DNA of 64,000 nucleotides from Lutimonas saemankumensis (GTDB taxonomy: Bacteria > Bacteroidota > Bacteroidia > Flavobacteriales > Flavobacteriaceae): NCBI RefSeq assembly GCF_020171465.1, contig NZ_JAIUZR010000003.1, positions 124,001-188,000 on the forward strand, written 5' to 3'. The position numbers were made by a program, and so were the translations under genes. The notes beneath the pieces are model-generated. The model ran no database searches. It was not told the origin of the DNA and saw only the letters and a list, made by a program, of their open reading frames with translations. Below, one piece after another: positions 48,392 through 51,316 of the stretch. Every line of letters begins with the position of its first letter. The first letter of the stretch is position 1.

Positions 48392-48850
48392 TTAAATAGT
48401 GAACAGTATGGGAATGAAGTAGAGGTAGGGAACCAGCCGGTAGGACTTCGTTTTATATTCTTTGTAGACCTGTCCGAAATTTTTAAGCAGAAACCGTTCT
48501 TCCAGTTTAATTTTAAGAAGGAATACAGCTACTAAAGTCAGATAGAACAATAGATTCAAAATAATAGGCTCATAAAATACGATAACGCCAAAAAATAGAA
48601 TGAGTCCCAAATACATAGGGTTTCTGATAATACGATAAGGGCCATTGGAAACAAAAACGGCATTTGATTTTACTTCGGGCTGTACATTGAACCTACCCGG
48701 TTTCATTACGATCACGGCCCAAATACATAAAGATGCCGCAAATACCTGAACAAATAAACCAAAACCACTTACCAGGATTTCCGTGAAAAAGGCAAAATAA
48801 AAAAAACATAAAAACTGGAGTAAAACCAGAATTTTAGAAAGTGTTGACAT
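48392..48850 (-). CDS. ICMT/phospholipid methyltransferase-like membrane protein
   Basis: A 152-aa inner-membrane protein with three to four hydrophobic helices and the C-terminal methyltransferase signature: NGPYRIIRNPMYLGLILF, then KIKLEERFLLKNFGQVYKEYKTKSYRLVPYL. This is the isoprenylcysteine carboxyl methyltransferase/PEMT pattern, where the RNP-x-Y and E-E-x-x-L regions bind S-adenosylmethionine. The substrate is unknown. It is divergent from the porin gene, and TATTTTTA, a near match to the -7 element, lies 4 bp upstream of its ATG. Confidence 0.85.
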   Translation of the reverse strand: MSTLSKILVLLQFLCFFYFAFFTEILVSGFGLFVQVFAASLCIWAVIVMKPGRFNVQPEVKSNAVFVSNGPYRIIRNPMYLGLILFFGVIVFYEPIILNLLFYLTLVAVFLLKIKLEERFLLKNFGQVYKEYKTKSYRLVPYLYFIPILFTI

Positions 48851-48918
48851 TTGTTAAAAATAGGTTTTTTTTTCAATATAAATTGGATGGGAGGCCCTCA
48901 AAACATGATATTTGTCAT

Positions 48919-48943
48919 CTTATTTAAAATTATTCTAAATAAG
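48919..48943. promoter_or_regulatory. 25-bp near-perfect palindrome (Fur/PerR-like) upstream of the porin-FMN operon
   Basis: Left arm CTTATTTAAAAT and right arm ATTCTAAATAAG around a central T match at 11 of 12 pairs. The inner 7-1-7 core TTAAAAT-T-ATTCTAA resembles Fur/PerR-family boxes. It ends 3 bp before the -33 TTG. Confidence 0.6.
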
Positions 48944-48946
48944 CCA

Positions 48947-48976
48947 TTGTGGAACCAAAATTTCACTTTACATTTG
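48947..48976 (+). promoter_or_regulatory. Perfect flavobacterial promoter of the porin-FMN operon
   Basis: TTG (48947-48949), a 19-bp spacer and TACATTTG (48969-48976). Confidence 0.75.
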
Positions 48977-48988
48977 CCTCAGATATAT

Positions 48989-49013
48989 CTAATTTGTAAT
49001 TAATCTAAATAAG
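48989..49013. promoter_or_regulatory. Second, weaker copy of the Fur-like dyad
   Basis: Right arm AATCTAAATAAG shares the 10-mer TCTAAATAAG with the first site. The left arm matches at 8 of 12. Its centre is 70 bp from the first and falls just after the predicted transcription start. Confidence 0.45.
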
Positions 49014-49032
49014 AATAACAAAAGATACCATT

Positions 49033-50181
49033 ATGAAATGGAAATTGTGGGGTGCTTTGGTCTTGTTGACCACAGTATCATTTGCCCAACAGGATACCAA
49101 ACAGGATTCCTTACGAGTAATGAACAGAATTGGATATAACAATGCAAGTAAGCTTACCATTGGGGGGTACGTTCAAATTGATTATAACGAACCGGATGGA
49201 GCAGCCCCGGGGAAACTTGATGTTCACAGACTTGTGATGTTATTCGGATATAATTTTAACGAAAAAGTTAGTTTTTTAACTGAAATTGAATTTGAACATG
49301 TGAAAGAGGTTTATGTAGAGCAGGCTTTTGTGAATTATAGTTTCAATACCGCCTTCAATCTTCGAGGTGGTTTGATGCTTGTGCCTATGGGATACGTCAA
49401 CGAATACCACGAACCACCTGTATTCTACGGGGTAGAACGTCCCGGACTGGACAAATATGTAGTACCAACAACCTGGCGTGAACTGGGAATTGGTGCCACG
49501 GGTAACCTTCAGGATCTTTCTCTACGTTATCAGGCCTATATATTTAATGGTTTTATCTCCTATAAGGATGGAGAAGGAACTTTAAGAGGTATTGACGGAC
49601 TGAGAAAAGGAAGGCAGAAGGGTGCAGAGTCTGTGATTCACAACCCAAACCTTTCTTTTAAATTAGATTATTATGGCGTTCTGGGCCTTAAAGTTGGATT
49701 TGCGGGGTATTTTGGAGAGACGCAATCAGATGATCCATCTGTTGAAAATTCAACGGTAGGGGTTGCCATGATTGGTCTTAATGCATCTTACAGATACAGA
49801 AGTTTAGACTTTAGAGGCCAGTATATCTATTCAAGCCTTTCAGGAACCGAGGAATACAATGAATTAACAGGAAAGGACCTGGGTTCCAAAATGGACGGTT
49901 ATTATATCGAGGCTGCCTATGACTTTATGCCTTTGATCAACCGTAATTCAACGAAACAATTATCACTTTTTTCAAGATATGAAGCTTATAATACCCATGC
50001 AGATACTGCAGGTGACCTTGAAAAAAATAAAGCCTTTGACAGAACAGACATTACTTTTGGATGTGACTTTAAAATCGCCCCTGGAGTAGCTGTTAAAGCT
50101 GATTATCAATGGAGAACTGACGCACAGGATGGTAGTGACAGAAGTAACCTGTTCAATGCCGGTGTCGGAGTAATGTTCTAA
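49033..50181 (+). CDS. Outer-membrane porin, possibly OprO/OprP-like
   Basis: A 382-aa protein with a signal peptide ending in SFAQ and alternating aromatic strands: KLTIGGYVQIDYNEP, VSFLTEIEFEHVKEVYVEQAFVNY, NLRGGLMLVPMGYVNEYHEPP, and a C-terminus FNAGVGVMF. The pattern of an N-terminal strand followed by a long region with FGYNF, GLMLVPMG and a late SRYEAY is that of phosphate-selective-type porins (family call by pattern). It is the first gene of a run with an FMN-binding protein and a 4-TM protein, under a perfect promoter flanked by Fur-like dyads. It may give access for a metal chelate or other small substrate. Confidence 0.82.
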   Translation: MKWKLWGALVLLTTVSFAQQDTKQDSLRVMNRIGYNNASKLTIGGYVQIDYNEPDGAAPGKLDVHRLVMLFGYNFNEKVSFLTEIEFEHVKEVYVEQAFVNYSFNTAFNLRGGLMLVPMGYVNEYHEPPVFYGVERPGLDKYVVPTTWRELGIGATGNLQDLSLRYQAYIFNGFISYKDGEGTLRGIDGLRKGRQKGAESVIHNPNLSFKLDYYGVLGLKVGFAGYFGETQSDDPSVENSTVGVAMIGLNASYRYRSLDFRGQYIYSSLSGTEEYNELTGKDLGSKMDGYYIEAAYDFMPLINRNSTKQLSLFSRYEAYNTHADTAGDLEKNKAFDRTDITFGCDFKIAPGVAVKADYQWRTDAQDGSDRSNLFNAGVGVMF

Positions 50182-50187
50182 AAATAC

Positions 50188-50195
50188 TATCTTTG
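50188..50195 (+). promoter_or_regulatory. Internal -7 box before the FMN-binding gene
   Basis: TATCTTTG lies 40 bp before ATG 50235. No TTG is seen upstream at the right distance, so it may be only a secondary promoter. Confidence 0.4.
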
Positions 50196-50234
50196 CCCTT
50201 TCTTTTTATATGAGAAGAAGGGGCTTTAATTTAT

Positions 50235-50747
50235 ATGAGAAGTTTTGCTTACATACTAACCTTTCTTTGTTTGAGTTCATTCGCGGATATTCCAAAGAAT
50301 TACCAGAAAAAGATCGACAAGGAAATATTCAGCATTTTTGAGATTGAAACCTACAAAAAGGAATTGGTTGTTATTGATGCTGCGGTACTGGAGCAAATGA
50401 ATGGGGAGTTTGATTCGAATAGTTTCTTTAAAATTGTTGAACAAGAGGAACACCTGGGCTATTTTTATTTTGGAACGGCACCGAGTAAGGCTGATGTTTT
50501 TGATTACGTGGTTATCCTTGACAAGGATCTTATCATCAAAAAGATCAAAATACTTGCTTATCGGGAAGACTGGGGAGGTGAGATAACCAGTAAGCGATGG
50601 TTAAAGCAGTTTGCCGGAAGTAACCCAGAATCTTCACTCAAATACGGAACGGATGTAATGGGAATCTCGGGGGCCACCATCTCAGCACGTTCAATGACCA
50701 ATGCTGTTAATTCTTTATTACTGAATCTATCAAAATTACAAGATTAA
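50235..50747 (+). CDS. Exported FMN-binding domain protein (covalent flavinylation motif)
   Basis: A 170-aa periplasmic protein with a signal peptide (to about Ala17) and an FMN-binding (NqrC/RnfG C-terminal-like) domain. It has VVILDKDLIIKKIKILAY, then EITSKRWLKQFAG, and SGATIS with Thr148 as the likely site of covalent FMN attachment by an ApbE flavin transferase (family knowledge; no apbE gene is in the window). It lies 53 bp after the porin and 7 bp before the 4-TM gene. It would carry electrons outside the cytoplasm, but donors and acceptors are unknown. Confidence 0.88.
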   Translation: MRSFAYILTFLCLSSFADIPKNYQKKIDKEIFSIFEIETYKKELVVIDAAVLEQMNGEFDSNSFFKIVEQEEHLGYFYFGTAPSKADVFDYVVILDKDLIIKKIKILAYREDWGGEITSKRWLKQFAGSNPESSLKYGTDVMGISGATISARSMTNAVNSLLLNLSKLQD

Positions 50748-50754
50748 CTGAAGT

Positions 50755-51255
50755 ATGAAGATAAGAGGAGTAATGGCATCAATGCCCAGAAAGTTCAGGT
50801 TGTTTGTTATTTGTTTTGTTCTCATTCTTAACGTTGGTTTCTTTACAGGTTTCAGTTTTGTGCGGGTTACAACTTCTTTAAATTCTCAGGGTATCGAGCA
50901 AAATTATCTTGGAAATGAGGACGATGAAAATGCAGAAGTCATGCATTTTAAGAAATCGGAGCGGGAGATCCTTACCCTGATCCATAATCATGTACTTTCC
51001 CTTTCACTTATTTTTTTCATTCTTGGCATCTTGCTCTACATGTGCAAGGTTCCGGATCGGCTGGTTTCCATATTGATGTTTGAACCTTTTTTGTCTTTGT
51101 TGCTGACCTTTGGAGGCATTTATATTTTGTGGAAAGGAGTTATCTGGTTTAAATATGTGATCATGGCATCTGGATTTGCCATGGTACTGTCTTTGATCCT
51201 TATGAGCACATTGGTTATTAAATGCTGTTTACACCCTGAAAAAGAAGTTGTTTAA
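50755..51255 (+). CDS. Four-TM membrane protein of the FMN-binding operon
   Basis: A 166-aa inner-membrane protein. Helices lie at about 16-36, 80-97, 105-125 and 134-156. The loop between helices 1 and 2 (about 40-77, with GIEQNYLGNEDDENAEVMHFKKSE) is probably periplasmic, followed by ILTLIHNHVLSLS, in which His77 and His79 could bind haem or metal near the membrane. It starts 7 bp after the FMN-binding gene, so the pair is translationally linked. I do not recognise a named family. It could pass electrons from the quinone pool to the flavin protein; that is inference. Confidence 0.75.
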   Translation: MKIRGVMASMPRKFRLFVICFVLILNVGFFTGFSFVRVTTSLNSQGIEQNYLGNEDDENAEVMHFKKSEREILTLIHNHVLSLSLIFFILGILLYMCKVPDRLVSILMFEPFLSLLLTFGGIYILWKGVIWFKYVIMASGFAMVLSLILMSTLVIKCCLHPEKEVV

Positions 51256-51308: not shown

Positions 51309-51316
51309 TAAATTTG
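51309..51316 (+). promoter_or_regulatory. -7 box of guaB
   Basis: TAAATTTG, 27 bp before ATG 51344, directly followed by a 23-bp palindrome. Confidence 0.55.

Follow-up and report, generated by a model that had tools for sequence, protein, structure and literature searches.

What might a bacterium do with an outer-membrane porin, an exported FMN-binding (FMN_bind) protein and a small protein with four transmembrane helices (4-TM), encoded side by side behind a pair of Fur- or PerR-like boxes? The locus that raises this question lies in a 64,000-nucleotide stretch of DNA (the window) from the 3.58-Mb genome of Lutimonas saemankumensis, whose named near relatives are Flavobacteriaceae; in the open-access literature that we searched, no paper on such a unit was found. 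An earlier note on the window had described two palindromes, a promoter and three open reading frames (Table 1), and every base of that description checks out. The SGAT motif with Thr148 and the residues His77 and His79 are all present as well. The middle protein passes the Pfam cut-off for FMN_bind (E 2.7e-8), while the BBP2-like match of the porin is weak and falls below it (E 1.1e-4). On the other side of the upstream region, which is common to both, a PEMT/ICMT-type methyltransferase gene (Pfam; window 48392-48850, minus strand) diverges from the porin gene. Downstream, a separate -7 element for guaB lies at 51309.

Table 1. Features of the locus (window positions; regulatory elements and functional sites are predictions).
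Feature	Position	Strand	Description
Distal Fur box, CTTATTTAAAATTATTCTAAATAAG	48919..48943	+	11/12 pairs; core 48922-48940 identical to the Riemerella hmuR Fur box
Bacteroidota-type promoter, TTG-N19-TACATTTG	48947..48976	+	TTG 48947-48949, TACATTTG 48969-48976
Proximal Fur box, CTAATTTGTAATTAATCTAAATAAG	48989..49013	+	weaker copy; 2 mismatches to the pattern
Porin	49033..50181	+	382 aa, exported, outer membrane; from open reading frame call, Pfam and homology
-7 element, TATCTTTG (TAnnTTTG)	50188..50195	+	candidate internal element
Hairpin	50195..50224	+	13 pairs, between porin and FMN_bind genes; candidate attenuator
FMN_bind protein	50235..50747	+	170 aa, exported; SGAT, Thr148 (codon 50676-50678) predicted flavin site
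4-TM protein	50755..51255	+	166 aa, no known family; His77 codon 50983, His79 codon 50989

The unit is not a peculiarity of this genome. Among 60 relatives, the window's own genome included, 25 encode the FMN_bind protein, 24 the 4-TM protein and 24 both; among 392 genomes of the phylum, the corresponding numbers are 48, 41 and 40. In all 40 genomes with both, the two genes are adjacent on one strand, with FMN_bind first in 39. In a set of 35 loci, a porin gene lies upstream in 31, the contig ending at most 125 bp away in the other four. The synteny on which the earlier note had staked its reading is thus kept, and the unit is spread widely across deep lineages of the phylum. For these counts, L006 and L007 were left out because they duplicate the genomes of L054 and L055, and L065 was dropped, its match lying inside a 646-aa frame without partner genes; the 4-TM match in G348 is marginal (E 2.5e-4).

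Eight genomes of the phylum have FMN_bind only. Three of them (G107, G203 and G242) were rejected as units, being Rnf operons by eye; the locus of G446 stops at a contig edge, G284 and G298 encode divergent HxH proteins beside FMN_bind, G326 is described below, and in G124 no 4-TM gene was seen beside FMN_bind. In G058, porin and FMN_bind are kept with an msrAB-like gene next to them, and the 4-TM gene is absent beside FMN_bind; in G215, a DUF6607 gene takes the porin position, with a convergent ferritin gene. The cases of G124, G058 and G215 speak against the explanation that we prefer below. The divergent HxH proteins of L193 and L196 (G298 and G400; GHFHLFG) have, by eye, a small CxSCH cytochrome-c-like protein nearby.

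The predicted promoter of the window sits between two flavobacterial Fur boxes that are 70 bp apart. Among the 31 porin loci, window included, 25 have at least 100 bp of upstream sequence and an untruncated porin; the other six, with less than 100 bp or a truncated porin, were left out. The pattern TTATTTAnAATnAnTCTAAATAA occurs with at most two mismatches in all 25 readable regions (reversed pattern, 1/25; shuffles, 1/2500), so that the palindrome upstream, too, has been retained in relatives. Two boxes are found in 23 of the 25, of which 22 have a TAnnTTTG element in between, 48-49 bp past the start of the distal box; the spacing between this element and the proximal box is less constant, at 13 to 25 bp. 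Fur-type regulation and conservation of the unit are, at the level of sequence, well supported.

The earlier note had treated the three genes as one operon. The gene order stands, but a single transcription unit is doubtful, since the gap between the porin and FMN_bind genes holds a hairpin and a further candidate -7 element. When gaps of more than 300 bases and L024 are left out, the gap hairpin has z < -2.5 in 21 of 30 loci (against 30 mononucleotide shuffles each), and TAnnTTTG occurs in 19 of 30 gaps (shuffle mean 5.2, maximum 9). FMN_bind and 4-TM may therefore have a promoter of their own. The shape of the hairpin is kept across loci, its sequence is not, and L060 and L061 carry a perfect Fur box match within this gap.

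The box also marks other genes. In the window's genome, 15 forward and 11 reverse matches with at most three mismatches (controls 0 and 2) fall into 18 places, where genes were identified by eye and, in five cases, by Pfam. Besides the unit itself, these places lie by feoB, sufS, iscA/sufB, the sufE-sufT gap, mrp, sucA, a multiheme cytochrome c, a ferredoxin/oxoacid oxidoreductase, atpB and pdhA; the sites L076, L077, L079, L080, L082 and L083 are without an iron link and may be chance matches. In seven chosen relatives, the number of strand matches with at most two mismatches is 7-15 per genome (controls 0-1). The gene feoB follows a box in the window's genome and five relatives by eye and in G026 by coordinates, and no feoB site is among the matches listed for G087. 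Further sites in relatives belong to hemA/araC, nqrA, an sdhC-like gene without a Pfam match, and a TonB receptor that has a PepSY gene as its neighbor. No catalase or peroxidase was noticed by eye among the box sites read.

These sites fall into different promoter layouts. At feoAB (in five of six genomes), sufS, iscA, sufT and mrp, the box starts 7-22 bp past the start of the -7 element; for feoAB of the window's own genome, no -7 element was found in this comparison. A two-box layout, with 48 bp from the distal box start to the -7 element, is shared by the porin/FMN_bind/4-TM unit and the TonB receptor, and it is from this layout that we infer repression of the unit by Fur. That receptor (L134, G028:C5:129202) adjoins a PepSY_TM gene. 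In an upstream-only layout, the box precedes the -7 element by 57-77 bp at genes that we take to be actA (four genomes), at sdhC, ferredoxin and one nqrA, and by 152-153 bp at hemA; atpB, araC, the other nqrA, sucA, pdhA and the oxidoreductase follow neither layout. At the respiratory genes L070, L145, L148, L156, L152, L075 and L129, the box precedes the -7 element by 57, 66-67 or 77 bp, in steps of about one helical turn. This upstream box is a candidate for Fur activation in Flavobacteriaceae. Since the same box is found at iron-using respiratory genes, it is by itself no proof of a role in uptake.

The Fur regulon of Riemerella anatipestifer offers a comparison. Its Fur box is given as ATTTAGAATTATTCTAAAT in the body text of PMC5609570, where the hmuR box is listed in Table 5 as ATTTAAAATTATTCTAAAT; the latter is identical to window positions 48922-48940, that is, to all 19 bp of the distal core. 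The hmuR promoter was one of four picked for electrophoretic mobility shift assays, and purified Fur is reported to bind (PMC5609570). The abstract of that paper gives a different box, GATAATGATAATCATTATC, as does PMC7976709. While the box is thus the same, the porin/FMN_bind/4-TM unit is absent from the 11 boxes of that Table 5. Under iron restriction, Riemerella feoA, feoB, SUF genes, NifU, a TonB receptor and ApbE go up and succinate dehydrogenase goes down (PMC5609570, where two iron treatments are apparently swapped in a methods sentence), which matches the two flavobacterial layouts, that of the feo/suf/TonB group and that of the respiratory group. In the Riemerella fur mutant, feoAB expression is lower, not higher (PMC5609570), so that feoAB does not appear to be simply Fur-repressed there.

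The gene neighborhood likewise contains iron genes. Among 11 named ten-kb loci, apbE lies at most 1.2 kb downstream of the unit in L056 and L057, as do ferritin in L056 and L059 and feoB in L060 and L061, so that five of the 11 have at least one of these genes; in the other six, guaB is next by eye. An ApbE gene adjoins the unit in all seven deeper or divergent loci tested. FeoB_C is found in 25/25 genomes with FMN_bind versus 28/35 without (p 0.035, a Fisher value that disregards shared descent). The window's genome has a second FeoB_C match (G000:C4:911860-912009), which falls within a reading frame of some 480 aa, and many genomes of the genus have it too.

With a [S/T]GA[S/T] motif and an FMN_bind match above the cut-off, the middle protein of the unit has the sequence marks of an ApbE-flavinylated protein. 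The SGAT threonine is kept in 33 of 35 sequences, the exceptions being L029, a contig-end fragment, and L064 (5001-5976, Lacinutrix neustonica), where the FMN_bind frame breaks off early with SGAT incomplete and the frame of the 4-TM protein has a late start, possibly a broken copy. The window's genome encodes one ApbE (C5:318385-319221), about 4 kb from a second FMN_bind gene, presumably nqrC. NqrC and RnfG share the FMN_bind fold with the window protein, and RnfG (9eri, E 0.0027) was its only match in a sequence search of the PDB. The window protein differs from both, however, in the absence of an nqr or rnf operon around its gene, in its stretch YREDxGxEIxxxRWLxQF, and in a score of 20.7 bits against the rnfG model, far below the cut-off of 102. 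A further parallel is flavinylation-based extracytosolic electron transfer as described in PMC8238504 and PMC10979944, which also combines an exported SGAT FMN_bind protein, ApbE and a membrane partner. The partners described in these papers are PepSY-, MsrQ-, NapH- and DUF4405-like, and for the PepSY type a link to iron and Fur is already in print (PMC8238504, PMC10979944); the window has an HxH four-helix partner and a dedicated porin instead. Electron transfer by the FMN_bind flavoprotein appears likely.

The 4-TM protein matches no Pfam or NCBIfam model above the cut-off. Its AlphaFold model (pLDDT 75, pTM 0.71; weak about residues 31-70) predicts long helices at 12-32, 69-96, 101-126 and 132-159, of which the second would hold the HxH motif, facing the periplasm as judged from charge. 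His77 and His79 are invariant in 33/33, 17/17 and 11/11 aligned members, down to 18% identity. In DUF4405-, PepSY- and MsrQ-type proteins, heme is ligated by His pairs on two helices; here, His77 and His79 are the only invariant histidines (17/17), and they lie on one helix. A search for a cofactor site found none, and structure comparison yielded matches of a generic four-helix kind only.

Counterparts in proteobacteria bear on the role of this protein. A tblastn search returned eight plasmid records, of which we examined five, one of them without annotation. The four annotated loci (Ideonella, Methylocystis, Bradyrhizobium and Sphingomonas) each encode an outer-membrane-type protein, FMN_bind, ApbE and a membrane protein of 139-155 aa. 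The Ideonella and Methylocystis porins are homologous to that of the window (32%, E 3e-47, and 27%, E 4e-28); the Bradyrhizobium gene was assigned by reading the locus, and Sphingomonas has DUF6662 in the porin position and SGGT in place of SGAT. While porin and FMN_bind link these loci to the window, their membrane protein has four invariant histidines (4/4 loci) and no significant relation to the 4-TM protein in hhalign. In two of the four, it weakly resembles cytochrome b561 or DUF4405, with scores below the cut-off; DUF4405 binds heme b (PMC10979944). Within the phylum of the window, G326 also has a cytochrome-b-like protein in the membrane slot. That one slot can be occupied by either of two proteins with no detectable kinship suggests a common task, the supply of electrons to the flavoprotein. 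Given its invariant HxH, the absence of a second heme-ligand pair and the four-His protein in the same slot elsewhere, the 4-TM protein is probably a different type of membrane electron donor.

Taken together, we tentatively propose that the unit is an iron-starvation module with which many marine Flavobacteriaceae reduce ferric iron outside the cytoplasm, a reading that we hold to be quite possible, if a little short of probable. Fe(II)-loaded Fur on both boxes would block the promoter, so that the genes would be made at low iron. The porin would admit a ferric complex or a mediator to the periplasm, ApbE would attach FMN to Thr148, and the 4-TM protein would dock the flavoprotein at the inner membrane. 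Electrons from quinol would then reach FMN via the HxH site without heme, reduced FMN would reduce ferric iron, and FeoB, with the same box at its gene, would take up the Fe(II). The quinol and heme-free steps are proposed because of the missing ligands in the 4-TM protein. The redox activity of the unit and its substrate are our inference, and the quinol donor, the heme-free 4-TM protein, the ferric acceptor and the role of the porin are guesses. We are more doubtful that the whole chain does without an iron cofactor. In that version, a heme-free HxH four-helix protein, in place of the proteobacterial heme-b protein, would take electrons from quinol on the outer side of the inner membrane and pass them through covalent FMN to ferric iron, so that a cell could still mobilize iron when it has too little for heme or Fe-S clusters.

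Several alternatives deserve consideration. PerR and Fur boxes resemble each other, and with two FUR-family proteins encoded in the genome, the unit could be a redox system regulated by peroxide. The core of its distal box is, however, identical to a printed Fur box, and the company that the box keeps is that of feo, suf, heme and respiratory genes. We therefore favor Fur, which upholds this half of the earlier note's 'Fur- or PerR-like' and leaves PerR very improbable. The unit could also be an iron-sparing outlet, in which cells short of heme and Fe-S enzymes use a flavin-only chain (quinol, 4-TM protein, FMN) to reach, via the porin, an acceptor other than nutritional iron. The boxes at respiratory genes and the wide spread of the unit in deep lineages are in keeping with this, but we consider it unlikely, given that the promoter layout sorts with uptake rather than respiratory genes and that ferritin and feoB are neighbors.

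The substrate could also be copper, heme or a siderophore complex, with the porin as a specific channel. Such a role would fit the neighbors of two proteobacterial units, multicopper oxidases and a ferritin-like gene in Methylocystis, a cytochrome c peroxidase and a TonB receptor in Ideonella; the oxidases and the peroxidase are not iron uptake genes as such and also count against the ferric iron proposal. The Fur box and the iron neighbors in Flavobacteriaceae make a different substrate improbable there. It seems similarly improbable that the 4-TM protein transfers no electrons and is a mere anchor or maturation factor of the flavoprotein, which would have another donor such as Nqr. While a single His pair without a detected cofactor site, and the lack of the gene in G058 and G124, would agree with this, HxH is invariant even at 18% identity and a cytochrome-b-like protein fills that slot elsewhere.

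As a possible iron-starvation module, the unit is a conserved, Fur-marked candidate for making, from ferric iron, the Fe(II) that FeoB takes up in marine Flavobacteriaceae. Its 4-TM protein represents a membrane protein family without annotation and, if it is heme-free and quinol-driven, would be a new type among the membrane partners of flavinylated proteins.
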